Source: Brucella tritici
GTDB lineage: Bacteria; Pseudomonadota; Alphaproteobacteria; Rhizobiales; Rhizobiaceae
Assembly: GCF_902825325.1 (NCBI RefSeq)
Contig: NZ_CADEAR010000002.1
Coordinates: 186,001-250,000 of the forward strand
DNA: 64,000 bases
Direction: 5' to 3'
Both the position numbers and the translations under genes were made by a program. Positions 14,116-36,169 of this stretch are shown in pieces (positions within the stretch are counted from its first letter, which is position 1; every line of letters begins with the position of its first letter). The notes under the pieces were generated by a model. That model ran no database searches, was not told where the DNA came from, and saw only the letters and a list, made by a program, of their open reading frames with translations.

Positions 14116-14624
14116 CGTGGCCTAGCCGGTGCACGGCTCAAGTCGCGACGCAATATCAGCGCAGCCGAACGCCCATTCGCGGTTTCATAGTAAGCGGGAC
14201 GGTCACCAACCTTCTGGAAACCGAGACGGCGATAAAGTGCCTGTGCGGCAACATTGGCCTCATCCACTTCCAGAAAAAGCGTTTCAGCGCGCTCCTGATA
14301 GAGATTGCGCAACACGGCATCCATCAGCGCGCGCCCGACGCCTTGGCGCTGTACATCACGCGCGACGGCGATGGTCAGGATTTCCGCCTCACCAGCCACC
14401 AGACGTGCCAGCACGAAACCACAGGCATCGTTCGGCTTACCTTCCGCACGGGCAACAAAACCGAAAACCGTATCCTGCGCAATCAGCGACCTGAAATCGT
14501 CGGAACTCCAAGCGTGATGGAAAGCGACGGCATGAATGCGCTGGATCGCATGACTGTCCTGTACGCCAAGCGGCTCCACCGAGATTTGTCTGCGACCGAA
14601 ACGCCCAAACGGCAAGCCCATCAT
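14112..14624 (-). CDS. rimI: Ribosomal protein S18-alanine N-acetyltransferase (RimI-type GNAT)
   Basis: A 170-residue GNAT acetyltransferase. The acetyl-CoA loop is seen as RDVQRQGVGRALM (RxxGxG/A), followed by LFLEVDEANVAAQALYRRLGF, a hallmark of RimI. It starts 3 nt after tsaB with a GGAG site; two adjacent ATGs are possible (14624 or 14621). It overlaps the next gene by ATGA. The tsaB-rimI pairing is widespread and supports RimI over a generic GNAT. Confidence 0.9.
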   Translation of the reverse strand: MMGLPFGRFGRRQISVEPLGVQDSHAIQRIHAVAFHHAWSSDDFRSLIAQDTVFGFVARAEGKPNDACGFVLARLVAGEAEILTIAVARDVQRQGVGRALMDAVLRNLYQERAETLFLEVDEANVAAQALYRRLGFQKVGDRPAYYETANGRSAALILRRDLSRAPARPR

Positions 14625-28416: not shown

Positions 28417-28773
28417 ATGACTTTCAAGACCCGTATGGCTATGCTTGCCGTTGCGGCAACCGGTCTTCTCGCGGCCACCGCAATCGAGGCTTCAGCACAG
28501 CAATGCGGCGGTGCCTCCTGGTACGCCCTCACTTCCCGCACGGCTTCGGGTGAACGTATGAACCCATCCGGTCTGACCGCAGCGCACCGCACCCTGCCGC
28601 TTGGCAGCAAGGTCAAGGTTACCAATCAACGAAACGGCAAGTCGCTCGTCGTTCGCATCAATGATCGCGGCCCATTCATCAAGGGACGCGTTTTGGACCT
28701 GTCAAAGGGTGCCGCAGGTCGGCTCGGTTTCATCGGCGCAGGACACACCAAGGTCTGCTTTACGCCGCTTTGA
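28417..28773 (+). CDS. RlpA-like double-psi beta-barrel protein
   Basis: A 118-residue secreted protein. The signal peptide is about 1-27 (ends EASA). The rest is one RlpA/DPBB domain, with [27 protein letters not shown] and LDLSKGAA, the conserved blocks of septal-ring lytic transglycosylase RlpA. It has no lipobox and no SPOR domain, so it is a minimal form. A role at the peptidoglycan is inferred. Confidence 0.88.
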
Positions 28774-28803: not shown

Positions 28804-30264
28804 TTATTTTCGATCCAGCCGGTGGGTGAACCAGCGGGTCAGCTTGATCCAGACCTCATCCTTTTCGGCAGCATCCTCGATCCCATGTTCAAGATTGGGA
28901 TTGTCGTTGACCTCAATCACCACCACGCCGTCGTCCGTTTCCTTGAGATCGACGCCATAAAGTCCGTCACCGATGCAGCGTGCCGCGCGCAGCCCGGTTT
29001 CCAGAACCGACGGCGGCGCATCGCCCAGCGCATAGGAACGAAACCCGCCTTCCAGGGGCTTGCCGCCCGTATCGTGCTTGACGATCTGCCAGTGATTTTT
29101 TGCCATCATATACTGGCAGATGAAAAGTGGCTTGCCGTCGAGAACGCCGACGCGCCAGTCGAACTTCGTCGGCATGTATTTCTGCGCCAGCAGGAGATCG
29201 CTGTCCTCCAGCCATAAAGTGGCGAGCGCTTTCAATTCGGCAAAATCCTTCACCTTCTTCACACCGCGCGAAAATGACGAATCCGGTATCTTGATCACCA
29301 TCGGAAAGTTGAGCACATCGGCAGCGCGCTCCAGATCCTCCTCGCCTGCAATCATCACCGTCGGCGGAACCGCCACGTCGTTCGCCTGCATCAGTTCGTG
29401 CAGATAGACCTTGTTCGTGCAGCGGATCATGGAAATCGGATCATCGATCACCGGCATGTTTTCCTGCTGCGCCCGCCGGGCAAACCGGTAAGTATGATTG
29501 GAGATCGACGTCGTCTCGCGGATGAATAGTGCGTCAAAATTGGCAAGCCGCGGCAGATCGCGCTTGCCGATAGGCTCGACTTCCACCCCGAGCCGGGCCG
29601 CTATCCTCGCCCAGTGCTTCAGCGTCGAGACGGTAGACGGCGGCATAGCCTCCTTCGGATCGCACAGAGTTGCGAAGGAGTAGCGGGCTGGAACCTTTGG
29701 GCGTGCTGCGCGCCACTCACGCTGGGTATAGCGATCAAGTGCGTCCTCGAAGCGTTCCTTCTGCGTTTTGGTAAACTTGGTGATATTCGCAAAGCCGATC
29801 TTCTGGATCCGCGCCCATTCACCGGATTTGACCGTGACTTCCAGCGACGGCGCGCGAAACCAGTCGAAGAGCAACCGTCCAAACCGCTCAAACTCGGGAT
29901 TATCGGCAAGGCCAAAATGCACATGGATCGTTTCCGGTGCTTTTTCCGGATGCTTGCCGAGCGCCTTGTTCAGCATGTCTTCCAGCTCGGGAATGGCGTT
30001 TTCATAAAGTCGCCGTTCCGACAGGTCGATCATCGTTTCCACGGAGGGGATGATGCGATGCCCCCGCGCTTCAGCCAGAAGCGAAGCGTAATATCCACGG
30101 CTTTGATATGCGTAGGAGCGCGACAAGTTGATGATGCGCGGGCGCAACTGTCCGTTGAAGAGCGCGGGATGCGCGAGATAGTCGCGCGTGGTCATGACCT
30201 TGTGTGGCGTCGCCCCGTTATCGATATCCGAGAGGCGCCCTACCAGAATGACGCAGATCGTCAT
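28804..30264 (-). CDS. RimK-like ATP-grasp ligase with RLAN N-terminal domain
   Basis: A 486-residue amide ligase. The N-terminal ~200 residues (MTICVILVGRLSDIDNG..., FNGQLRPRIINLSRSYAYQSRGYYASLLAE) match the RLAN domain that accompanies a subset of RimK-like ATP-grasp enzymes. The ATP-grasp part (about 270-465) has nucleotide-binding Lys285 and Lys325 (FPMVIK) and metal ligands Asp439, Glu451 and Asn453 (VVIEVNDNPN). The start overlaps the stop of the GNAT-C39 gene (TGATG), so the two products are made together. Families with this pairing are predicted to build or modify peptides; the substrate is unknown. Confidence 0.9.
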   Translation of the reverse strand: MTICVILVGRLSDIDNGATPHKVMTTRDYLAHPALFNGQLRPRIINLSRSYAYQSRGYYASLLAEARGHRIIPSVETMIDLSERRLYENAIPELEDMLNKALGKHPEKAPETIHVHFGLADNPEFERFGRLLFDWFRAPSLEVTVKSGEWARIQKIGFANITKFTKTQKERFEDALDRYTQREWRAARPKVPARYSFATLCDPKEAMPPSTVSTLKHWARIAARLGVEVEPIGKRDLPRLANFDALFIRETTSISNHTYRFARRAQQENMPVIDDPISMIRCTNKVYLHELMQANDVAVPPTVMIAGEEDLERAADVLNFPMVIKIPDSSFSRGVKKVKDFAELKALATLWLEDSDLLLAQKYMPTKFDWRVGVLDGKPLFICQYMMAKNHWQIVKHDTGGKPLEGGFRSYALGDAPPSVLETGLRAARCIGDGLYGVDLKETDDGVVVIEVNDNPNLEHGIEDAAEKDEVWIKLTRWFTHRLDRK

Positions 30265-31370
30265 CAGTCCGTCCTTTTTTCCAGAATAACGGCTGCCCTG
30301 AGCCCATCACTGCCGAACCGTGCGATGCGGTCGAAAATATGGAAGGGAACAGGGACGTTTGCAGCATCGGCGATGGTTTCGCCAAGCTCTTCCTCCACCC
30401 AGGGGTCGTGAATGAGAATGTGCCGCCCGTCTTCACCATGGGCCAGCACCCAGTGCGGCACTTTCTTGCCGAACATATGATAACCGCTGACCAAGACGAT
30501 CACAGCCGCCCCACGGCGCAAGGCAGCCAGAATGTCGTGCAGGGTGAAACCACGATAGTCCACCGGAATGGCATAGGCTTCCGTGCGCTGGCGAAAATCG
30601 GTTTGCGCCAGTTGCATTACCTTGCGCTTTTCTTCCGAGCGCACCGATTGCAGGAAAAGCATGTCCTCAATGGATACGATGATCGACGCTTTCAGACCGC
30701 GCTCATGCGCAGCGACCGCAAGTCCGAAAGGCTCGCAGCCGCCCGGCCCCGACATCATATAGATCGTCGTCGCATCGCGCCAAAGGCGGACTTCCAGCAC
30801 GGGATCGAGCCGCGTCTCCCAATTGTGTCGGGCAAGCACCATCATCAGGCAAGCCGCACCGCAGGTAAAATCGGTCGTCTGCTCGTAGTAAGGGAAAGCT
30901 GTGACCGGTGAAATCTCCCCGCGAACCGTCTTTTCGAAACGTAGCGCATCCGAATGATCAGCATAATAGTCGAGATAGCGTCCGATGGGGCGATAACCGT
31001 GCCGCTTGTAGAGTGCGATGGCGCGTTCGTTGTCCTCGCGCACCTCCAGCCGCAGCAACGGACGGTCGTGGTCGTAAGCTGCCGTTTCCGCCGCCTGCAA
31101 CAGGAGAGAGCCGATGCCTTTGACCTTGGCCTCCGGGTCGACAGCAATCGAGTAAAGCCGTGCAAGTGCAGTGCCATGACGAAACAGGATCATCGCATAG
31201 CCGATGACGGTCCCTTCCATTGTTGCAACGATGGTTTCTGCGGTCGGTCGCGCGATGAGGGCGCGAAATGAACGGCGGGAAATTCGGTCTGTCTCGAAAC
31301 AGCGCTCTTCGATGCGCATGAGCGCATCTATGTCGTCTGCCGTGGCCTTGCGCGTCGTTGCGCCTGTCAT
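30264..31370 (-). CDS. GNAT acetyltransferase fused to C39/papain-like cysteine peptidase
   Basis: A 368-residue two-domain protein. Residues 1-150 form a GNAT domain with the acetyl-CoA loop VKGIGSLLL (83-91) and the LEVREDNERAIALYKRHGY segment. Residues 155-368 are a papain-like peptidase of the C39 type with Cys170 (TDFTCGAACLMM), His306 (VPHWVLAHGEDG) and Asp322 (ILIHDPW). All three catalytic residues are intact. It is the first gene of a two-gene operon with the RLAN/ATP-grasp ligase. No ABC exporter is adjacent, so it is not an ordinary C39 bacteriocin maturation protease. The start at 31370 fits the domain boundary. Confidence 0.9.
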   Translation of the reverse strand: MTGATTRKATADDIDALMRIEERCFETDRISRRSFRALIARPTAETIVATMEGTVIGYAMILFRHGTALARLYSIAVDPEAKVKGIGSLLLQAAETAAYDHDRPLLRLEVREDNERAIALYKRHGYRPIGRYLDYYADHSDALRFEKTVRGEISPVTAFPYYEQTTDFTCGAACLMMVLARHNWETRLDPVLEVRLWRDATTIYMMSGPGGCEPFGLAVAAHERGLKASIIVSIEDMLFLQSVRSEEKRKVMQLAQTDFRQRTEAYAIPVDYRGFTLHDILAALRRGAAVIVLVSGYHMFGKKVPHWVLAHGEDGRHILIHDPWVEEELGETIADAANVPVPFHIFDRIARFGSDGLRAAVILEKRTD

Positions 31371-31546
31371 CTTTTGGCCTTTGCAAATGGATCGTTATGA
31401 TCCGGTCGAACAACAACAATTGGCTTATTCGAGGCAAAAGACAAGCGCCCGGACCGTGGCAAAATTATGAGTGATTTTCACCGCCCGATCCGCTTCGAAA
31501 AGCTTACAAATTCAATCACTAATTGCATTTTTTAAGAATACCCTCA

Positions 31547-31561
31547 TTAACCATTAATTAA
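31547..31561. promoter_or_regulatory. Putative CtrA box 1
   Basis: TTAA-CCATTAA-TTAA, an exact TTAA-N7-TTAA site including TTAACCAT, in the 295-nt divergent region and 105-119 nt before the transglutaminase-like gene. Confidence 0.6.
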
Positions 31562-31613
31562 GAAGTCGAGCGACCCCGAGGCGAACTGAATTGACTCCGG
31601 AGTATTTCAGCCA

Positions 31614-31628
31614 TTAACGTTTCGTTAA
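31614..31628. promoter_or_regulatory. Putative CtrA box 2
   Basis: TTAA-CGTTTCG-TTAA, a second exact spacing match 38-52 nt before the ATG. It overlaps a likely promoter whose -35 may be TTGACT at 31591-31596. Confidence 0.6.
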
Positions 31629-31665
31629 TAAATGAGTAACTGGCGAAAACCAAAGGGCGTTGAGT

Positions 31666-32286
31666 ATGTTTTGCGTTGTTCGCTCGACCACAAAGATTAT
31701 GGCAGCCGCCGGTTTCGCCGCTTCGCTGCTGATGGCAAGCTTTGGTGCACAAGCCGCCTCCGGCGACTTCATGCAGACCGGCAAGTTGACCTCGCAGCCG
31801 ATCGGACATTATGAATTCTGCAAGCGCGAAGCCAAGGAATGCGGCATCACCAGCCGTGACACCCGCGCACTGCAGCTCAACCATTCGAATTGGCAGCGCA
31901 TCGTCGAGATCAATCTTGCGGTCAATGAAAGCATCAAGCCGATGACCGACATGGAAATCTACGGCGTTGAGGAATACTGGGCTTACCCGACAACCGTTGG
32001 TGACTGCGAAGATTACGTATTGCTGAAGCAGCGTGAATTGCAGAAGGCGGGCATCCCGATTACCGATCTTCTGATCACTGTCGTTCGCAAGCCGGACGGC
32101 GAAGGCCATGCGGTCCTCACCGTTCGCACGGATCGTGGCGACTTCGTTCTCGACAATCTGACCGACGAAGTCATGCGCTGGAACGAGACGGATTATACCT
32201 ATCTGAAACGTCAGGCCGCCAGTGATACCGGTCGCTGGGTCACGATCGAAGGCCCGGACAATCTTCTCGTCGGCGCAGTGCACTGA
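31666..32286 (+). CDS. Transglutaminase-like cysteine peptidase (BTLCP family)
   Basis: A 206-residue secreted protein. The signal peptide is about 1-30 (ends GAQA). The COG3672/BTLCP catalytic triad is visible: Cys114 in TTVGDCEDY, His148 in GEGHAVLTV and Asp163 in FVLDNLTD. Family members include LapG-like periplasmic proteases, but many rhizobial members are uncharacterised. The ATG at 31666 was preferred to a TTG two codons upstream because AAGGG is then correctly spaced. Two CtrA boxes upstream suggest cell-cycle control. Confidence 0.9.
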   Translation: MFCVVRSTTKIMAAAGFAASLLMASFGAQAASGDFMQTGKLTSQPIGHYEFCKREAKECGITSRDTRALQLNHSNWQRIVEINLAVNESIKPMTDMEIYGVEEYWAYPTTVGDCEDYVLLKQRELQKAGIPITDLLITVVRKPDGEGHAVLTVRTDRGDFVLDNLTDEVMRWNETDYTYLKRQAASDTGRWVTIEGPDNLLVGAVH

Positions 32287-35230: not shown

Positions 35231-36169
35231 CTACCGCCTGGCTTCGACCGCATCCCAGAACAGGGCCGCAATGTTGGTCCCGTCGAAACGCTGGATTTCG
35301 CGGATACCAGTTGGAGAGGTAACGTTGATTTCGGTCATGTAATCGCCGATCACATCGATGCCAACCAGGATGAAGCCACGCTCCCTCAACGATGGTCCAA
35401 TGCGTTCGCAAATCTCGCGTTCCCGCGGCGTCAGCTTGCTCTGTTCCGCACGCCCACCAACATGCATGTTGGAACGGGCATCGGTTTCCGACGGCACACG
35501 ATTAATCGCGCCGACGGGTTCGCCGTCGATCAGAATGATGCGCTTGTCACCAGCGCGCACGTCTTTCAGATAGCGCTGCGCGATGAACGGCTCCGTGAAG
35601 AGCTGGCCGAACATTTCCAGAAGCGAGGTCAGGTTGCGGTCACCATCGGCCAGATGGAAGACGCCCGCACCGCCATTGCCGTAAAGCGGCTTCAAAATAA
35701 TGTCGCCGAACTCGCGACGGAAATCCATGACTTCCTGCGGGTCCTTGGTGATGAGTGTTTCCGGCATCAGGTCAGGAAACTCTGTCACGAAGATTTTTTC
35801 GGGACTATTGCGCACCCAGGCCGGATCATTGACCACCAGTGTCTTCGGGTGAATCCGCTCCAGAAGATGGGTTGTGGTAATGTAGTTCATGTCGAAGGGC
35901 GGGTCCTGACGCAGAAGCACCACATCCATTTCCGAAAGGTCACGGCGGGTCGGCTCGCCCAGCGAATAGTGATCGCCCTTGACGTCGCGCACTTCCATTT
36001 TTTCCAAGCGGGCGGAAACGACGCCGTCACGCATCGAAAGCCGGTCCGGCGTATAATGGTAAAGCTCATGACCGCGCTTCTGCGCCTCGAGCGAAAGGGC
36101 GAATGTGGTATCGCCTGCAATGTTCACCGTGCTGATATGGTCCATCTGGACCGCGACTTTGAGAGCCAT
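35231..36169 (-). CDS. gshB: Glutathione synthetase
   Basis: A 312-residue ATP-grasp enzyme joining glycine to gamma-glutamylcysteine. Diagnostic blocks are [45 protein letters not shown] and [22 protein letters not shown]. The length matches bacterial GshB. It is a single gene with an ATG at 36169 and an AGGAAAT ribosome site, divergent from the SMP-30 gene. Confidence 0.97.

Follow-up and report, generated by a model that had tools for sequence, protein, structure and literature searches.

An RLAN-domain ATP-grasp ligase and a GNAT acetyltransferase as the conserved core of a gene pair with a dispensable C39-type peptidase domain

The window analysed here, a stretch of 64,000 nucleotides from Brucella tritici (contig NZ_CADEAR010000002.1), carries on its minus strand a two-gene unit in which a GNAT acetyltransferase fused to a papain-like C39-type peptidase (GNAT-C39) is transcribed first and an RLAN-domain ATP-grasp ligase second. 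Our comparison of this pair with its relatives indicates that the conserved core of the system is the ligase together with the GNAT, and that the peptidase is dispensable. The genes are coupled, their catalytic residues are conserved, the GNAT and ATP-grasp parts share their folds with known enzymes, and the peptidase has changed between presence and absence many times. An earlier note, made from the sequence of this DNA, had described a GNAT-papain-like fusion beside an ATP-grasp ligase, as Pfam domain matches bear out, and two genes with one common base in TGATG, as the open reading frame (ORF) coordinates confirm (base 30264). The ligase matches RLAN (PF14401) with 147.7 bits against a cut-off of 25 over residues 27-175, followed by a RimK ATP-grasp region, and is thus a member of the RLAN family. 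The 368-residue protein matches GNAT (PF00583) with 67.8 bits and DUF3335/Peptidase_C39-like (PF11814) with 274 bits against a cut-off of 25 over residues 159-363, a match that assigns it to the latter family on the strength of its sequence.

Conservation of the ligase-acetyltransferase pair

Two sets of loci were compared, one of 60 regions from 56 genomes picked to span genomes with and without DUF3335 (55 of these regions hold RLAN), and one of the best 80 named loci of a ligase scan, which leans to close relatives; combined, they give 136 ligase loci, including the window, with 133 different ligase sequences. At 53/55 loci of the first set and 80/80 of the second, RLAN has a GNAT no more than 1 kb away, and overall a GNAT is present at the locus in 135/136 cases. 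At L067 the distance is 1.5 kb, and L048 shows no GNAT within 1 kb, its genome holding a GNAT-C39 on another contig (L049). By architecture, 80 of the 136 loci have GNAT-C39, 55 have a GNAT but no GNAT-C39, and one has no GNAT; the split is 27/27/1 in the 56-genome set and 52/28/0 among the best 80 named loci, to which the window is added. The earlier note had proposed a joint unit that ligates amino acids, acetylates an amine and trims or transfers a peptide. The coupling stands, and so do ligation and acetylation as predicted chemistries, but the peptidase does not belong to the core; since only a GNAT, and no GNAT-C39, occurs at 55/136 loci, trimming or transfer of a peptide would be an optional step.

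On the ligase (RLAN) tree the C39 labels require 24-25 changes, of which starred, well-supported branches force at least 14; this is a quick tree without bootstrap, flagged by the tool for long branches that meet. Even so, the label clusters, as shuffled labels need about 43 changes on average and none of 500 shuffles came as low. Other arrangements are met as well. The GNAT is fused to the N-terminus of RLAN in L074 (8282-10285) and L096 (8911-10965), two genomes that also carry a separate GNAT-C39 gene. In L095 (8385-10909) RLAN and a diverged GNAT are separated by a DUF3335 gene that stands alone, is itself diverged (80 bits to PF11814) and is encoded on the other strand, and L082 (G294:C15) encodes two DUF3335 proteins that lack a GNAT match, with no RLAN at the same locus. 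Within the single genus Nitratireductor, N. alexandrii (L138) has C39 while N. aquimarinus (L110) and N. soli (L113) lack it. The environmental bacteria with orthologues include Mesorhizobium ciceri WSM1271 (L125) and Azospirillum brasilense (L172).

The catalytic residues named in the earlier note are intact and were numbered correctly. In the ligase, Lys285, Lys325, Asp439, Glu451 and Asn453 are identical in 136/137 aligned rows, the remaining row being a gap. Among 87 aligned matches of the C39 domain, Cys170 and Gln164 are identical in all 87, His306 in 86 (one gap) and Asp322 in 83 (three Glu, one gap); we take Cys170, His306 and Asp322 to be the catalytic triad and Gln164 the oxyanion glutamine. 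Among GNAT matches of at least 60 bits, Glu109 is kept in 83/83 copies with C39 and 57/57 without (141/142 when unfiltered), and Tyr121 in 78/83 (five Phe) and 57/57, respectively; both residues are presumably the counterparts of the catalytic Glu and Tyr of RimI. Within the genus, pairwise ratios of non-synonymous to synonymous substitution rates (dN/dS) against ten relatives, perhaps nine distinct ones because L104 and L192 gave identical values, range from 0.02 to 0.08 for both genes, with means of 0.03-0.05 in each of the four domains, C39 included. Such values point to strong purifying selection on both genes within the genus, and the conservation of the residues is therefore not a matter of chance. 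The earlier note had considered a joint pathway unlikely if the catalytic residues varied among orthologues or if the pair was separated in most genomes; the residues are near-invariant and the pair stays together, and the joint pathway survives both tests.

The occurrence of the ligase is patchy. RLAN was found in 42/101 genomes of a family sample and 72/398 of a phylum sample, which overlap in some genomes, and DUF3335 in 31/101 and 58/398; all of the 31 and 57 of the 58 also have RLAN, and RLAN genomes with no DUF3335 match at all number 11/42 and 15/72. Within the genus the ligase occurs in 18/35 genomes, in two of them in pieces owing to poor assemblies. Since the flanking BTLCP gene has a copy of at least 71% identity in 34/35 genomes, it is the pair itself that was gained or lost.

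Probable losses of the peptidase domain, and viral pairs

The GNAT tree clusters by architecture, with 6 changes between GNAT-C39 and the rest (at least 3 forced) against about 24 on the RLAN tree, and from this difference replacement of GNAT-C39 by lone GNATs was first suspected. A tree alone cannot distinguish gain from loss, and DNA comparison was informative in two cases. The ligases of L121 and L123 are 94% identical, and the DNA of these loci aligns over GNAT and ligase, with 687 bp of L123, most of C39, opposite 132 unaligned bp in L121; likewise, GNAT and ligase align between L085 and L156, with 671 bp opposite 77 bp across the C39 segment. The GNAT of L121 has its top score, 423, with that of L123, compared with 400 for other lone GNATs of its clade and 338 outside the clade. 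Given this best score and the C39 segment unmatched in the DNA, partner swapping was rejected for L121 and L123. The two GNATs are only 58% identical, while ten C39-bearing pairs at similar ligase distance are 85-89% identical, which suggests that the GNAT changes faster without C39, its catalytic residues being kept.

How far loss accounts for the other lone GNATs is less clear-cut. Speaking against it, 12 of the 16 lone GNATs of the clade find their best match within the clade in another lone GNAT; for the other four (L113, L091, L087 and L121) it is a GNAT-C39. For 14 of the 16, the best GNAT-C39 of their own clade outscores the best lone GNAT from outside it, L086 and L093 being the exceptions. 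From these sequence comparisons, a mix of old and recent C39 losses with faster change of the GNAT appears to be the better reading, and partner swapping may have occurred in some lineages.

Nine viral contigs hold an ATP-grasp relative of the ligase, L200 and L201 looking alike. The RLAN domain is missing in seven of the nine viral ligases; L206 breaks off, and L207 retains RLAN only in part. In four contigs a GNAT gene lies directly 5' of the RLAN-less ligase (Table 1). Genes of phage type stand nearby, namely a baseplate wedge gene in L202 and an integrase gene in L203; portal and ribonucleotide reductase genes lie near the ligase relative in L242 (same contig as L199), and tail fibre, terminase and portal genes occur in L244 (same contig as L201), where a ligase with no GNAT match is flanked by the terminase and portal genes. 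Neither the window ligase nor that of L202 has a match at E 1e-10 in 50,697 phage records. We describe these putative RLAN-less GNAT-ligase pairs of phage contigs as a new point, and since viral contigs carry the pair without the RLAN domain, they support GNAT plus ligase as the minimal unit.

Predicted product and competing explanations

It is tempting to hypothesize that this two-enzyme module, with no linked exporter, makes an N-acetyl-capped peptide, a reading to which we give a probability of about 0.45 by analogy. It is favoured because the routes to N-acetylglutaminylglutamine amide (NAGGN) in bacteria and to N-acetylaspartylglutamate (NAAG) in mammals share the logic of a ligase and an acetyltransferase. 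We infer the reactions of both enzymes as follows. The RLAN protein would spend ATP to couple an amino acid to a carboxylate through an amide bond, in the way of LysX, ArgX and RimK, the RLAN domain probably recognizing the acceptor; the RimI/Ard1-like GNAT would acetylate the same small peptide, or one of its constituent amino acids, at the alpha-amino group; and the product would be built from common metabolites of the cell, in the manner of NAGGN and NAAG. The C39-type cysteine peptidase would be accessory, trimming or recycling the peptide or exposing the amine that the fused GNAT caps.

The neighbourhood of the pair agrees with the earlier statement that no exporter or precursor gene is nearby, within the limits of the two comparisons made. 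Among 4502 ORFs of 25-130 residues within 2 kb, no small-ORF family was found in four or more loci spanning an RLAN distance above 0.8, by a BLAST comparison at E 1e-4 that could miss very short or fast-changing peptides. For larger ORFs within 5 kb, the commonest non-core family, GGDEF/EAL (five members identified), reaches 7 of 48 separated lineages, as does a second one, ABC ATPase-like by eye, beyond which no transporter family recurs; no recurrent carrier-protein gene was seen in the same 48 lineages, 47 of which have a GNAT at the locus. As neighbour families reach only 7/48 lineages, nothing points to a precursor, exporter or third enzyme that is widely linked to the pair, and the shared third partner sought by the earlier note did not emerge. 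Taken together, the pair would comprise an ATP-dependent amide-bond ligase and an alpha-amine acetyltransferase whose substrates need no dedicated neighbour gene.

Several points weigh against an N-acetyl-capped small peptide. The tie between GNAT and ligase looks looser without C39, since the correlation between RLAN and GNAT distances falls from 0.86 (77 loci with C39) to 0.27 (53 loci without). At the loci examined, genes for biosynthesis, regulation or osmotic stress show no wide linkage to the pair. The pair also fails the NAGGN synthetase model (TIGR03103), with 30.8 bits from the GNAT part only against a cut-off of 569 over 547 positions. The closest solved structures among the matches listed are RimI/Ard1 protein N-terminal acetyltransferases for the GNAT and LysX/ArgX/RimK for the ATP-grasp fold, and the nearest of these relatives with known substrates modify protein termini (RimI on S18, RimK on S6, LysX/ArgX on the carrier protein LysW), so on this ground a protein target is as favoured as a small peptide.

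This kinship is an argument for the tagging of protein termini, in which the ligase would extend a cellular protein at its C-terminus or at a side-chain carboxyl, as RimK does with S6, the GNAT would acetylate this protein or a partner at the N-terminus, and C39 would remove or edit the tag. A target encoded elsewhere would need no linked precursor or biosynthesis gene, phage contigs carry the GNAT and ligase pair, and the genome has its own RimI and, as far as the genome search reached, no protein above the RimK-family cut-off. No target is indicated, however, the patchy occurrence of the ligase within the genus would be unexpected if the protein that it modifies were essential, and RimK-fold enzymes also make small metabolites, NAAG synthetase for example. 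We consider tagging of protein termini rather unlikely, though it comes next in probability to the capped peptide. A long shot is that a cytosolic peptide or protein is modified at both of its ends, by RimI-like capping and RLAN-dependent C-terminal extension, with C39 cutting first where present and phages carrying a stripped-down version; if true, this would be a terminal-tagging chemistry used by hosts and viruses alike.

More doubtful is a scheme of the kind used for ribosomally synthesized and post-translationally modified peptides (RiPPs), in which C39 would cleave a leader, the GNAT acetylate the new N-terminus and the ATP-grasp enzyme cross-link or extend the peptide. A fusion of cutter and capper would be chemically sensible, and microviridin maturation, according to the available part of a report on it, involves ATP-grasp ligases and N-terminal capping by a GNAT, while the transporter of classes II/III frequently includes a C39 domain (PMC13039773). 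Against this stand the small-ORF and transporter results given above and the loci without C39; membership of the graspetides or other RiPPs is not indicated, as no shared small-ORF family emerged within 2 kb in a comparison that an unlinked or very variable precursor could escape. It is hardly probable that C39 is an acyl or peptidyl transferase, comparable to BtrH in butirosin or to phytochelatin synthase, which would pass an aminoacyl or peptidyl group from the ligase on to a small molecule. In favour of this, papain-like relatives with transferase chemistry exist (PMC10318531, as available in part) and a weak, non-significant profile match to BtrH-type chains was obtained (E about 0.08); against it, no carrier-protein gene recurs among the neighbours and the product must form without C39 wherever the domain is missing.

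The system deserves attention: the ligase is present in almost a fifth of the sampled genomes of the phylum (72/398), with a GNAT beside nearly every copy examined and no known product. The optional peptidase tells experimenters what to assay first, and the Nitratireductor relatives with and without C39 offer ready-made comparisons within one genus.

The locus and its relation to known systems

Table 1. Positions of the gene pair, its flanks and the viral pairs (in the window unless a locus is named)
Feature	Position	Strand	Remarks
RLAN-domain ATP-grasp ligase, 486 aa	28804..30264	-	RLAN about 1-182; complete LysX/RimK-type ATP-grasp module 193-486
GNAT-C39 fusion, 368 aa	30264..31370	-	RimI/Ard1-type N-acetyltransferase about 1-150; DUF3335 papain-like domain 157-365
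Base common to both genes, in TGATG	30264..30264	-	from the sequence
Intergenic region, presumed promoter region of the pair	31371..31659		also upstream of the divergent BTLCP gene
DPBB (RlpA-like) gene	28417-28773	+	flank of the pair
BTLCP cysteine-proteinase gene (Peptidase_C93)	31660-32286	+	divergent flank of the pair
Viral GNAT gene directly 5' of RLAN-less ligase	L202 5558-6867
Viral GNAT gene directly 5' of RLAN-less ligase	L203 5493-6858
Viral GNAT gene directly 5' of RLAN-less ligase	L204 5475-6906
Viral GNAT gene directly 5' of RLAN-less ligase	L205 5579-6846

The intergenic region holds no ATG-started ORF of at least 20 residues that reads in the same sense as the pair, all such ORFs running the opposite way. 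A relative of the BTLCP gene also adjoins the pair in L103, and DUF2817-like and/or DUF155-like genes lie near GNAT-C39 or RLAN in L058, L071, L075 and L078, identified by Pfam in L058 only. In genome G497 of the same genus (L190, 394-2961) the GNAT-C39 and RLAN genes form one uninterrupted frame of 855 codons, through either a true gene fusion or a difference of one base in the assembly. The closest named ligase among the matches listed, at 92% identity, is from Ochrobactrum teleogrylli, in keeping with the family name Brucellaceae used in the earlier note.

Within the ATP-grasp enzymes, the ligase stays below the cut-offs of RimK (TIGR00768, 72.6 bits, or 73 in the genome search, against 143.4) and LysX (TIGR02144, 68.3 bits against 275.6), so that its kinship to LysX is one of fold only, and it has an extra RLAN domain absent from RimK, LysX and ArgX. 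The structure model of the RLAN protein has a predicted template modelling score (pTM) of only 0.59, which leaves its domain arrangement uncertain; the C39 domain gave no significant match to PDB sequences. The nearest other RimK-fold protein of the genome (window 35231-36169, minus strand, 81.7 bits to TIGR00768) is probably a glutathione synthetase by appearance. The GNAT falls at the RimI cut-off (TIGR01575, 86.4 bits), the protein scoring 85.9 and the open frame in the genome search 88.4. It differs from RimI/Ard1 in being fused to C39 or paired with RLAN, and the genome has a separate RimI, its best match to the model, which is over the cut-off at 94.1 bits and lies in the window about 14 kb from the pair (14163-14552, minus strand).

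Among systems that join ligation to acetylation, NAGGN synthesis (asnO-ngg) has a like logic of GNAT and ATP-grasp, Ngg being an ATP-grasp enzyme. As described in the available part of its source, Ngg both acetylates a glutamine and attaches another to it, yielding an N-acetylated dipeptide, and the operon includes a peptidase gene (PMC8070244). The pair was rejected as the NAGGN enzyme on the score given above, the genome's own copy matching TIGR03103 elsewhere with 918.8 bits (G000:C4:179854-181491). Because the genome encodes both separately, the pair probably duplicates neither the NAGGN enzyme nor RimI. The mammalian NAAG cycle (NAT8L, RIMKLA/RIMKLB, GCPII) is encoded by separate genes, has no RLAN domain and uses a zinc peptidase, whereas the C39 of our pair is of the cysteine-peptidase type. 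In that cycle, as far as its source was available, an acetyltransferase makes N-acetyl-aspartate, the NAAG synthetase Rimkla adds glutamate and a peptidase cleaves the product (PMC8836185), Rimklb being a RimK homologue. Microviridins and other graspetides combine ATP-grasp, GNAT capping and sometimes C39, as here, but our pair has no common precursor-like ORF nearby.

The domain families themselves are already known from Pfam, and a role in peptide modification has been predicted before. The amidoligase survey of Iyer, Abhiman, Burroughs and Aravind from 2009 is said to describe the pairing of RLAN with GNAT-papain fusions, and the same domain families (PF14401, PF11814) are found here. In the available parts of later sources, a 2023 survey reports DUF3335 as frequently fused to GNAT, a table of a Pseudomonas fosmid lists a 'RimK family protein' beside a GNAT with no function given, and two further reports mention C39 proteins but give no hint of RLAN. 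In the literature searched, which took in few subscription papers, experimental work on proteins with RLAN or DUF3335 was not found. Beyond the known RLAN and DUF3335 families, the present comparison adds the optional nature of the peptidase, the GNAT as constant partner, GNAT-RLAN fusions and the RLAN-less pairs of phages.
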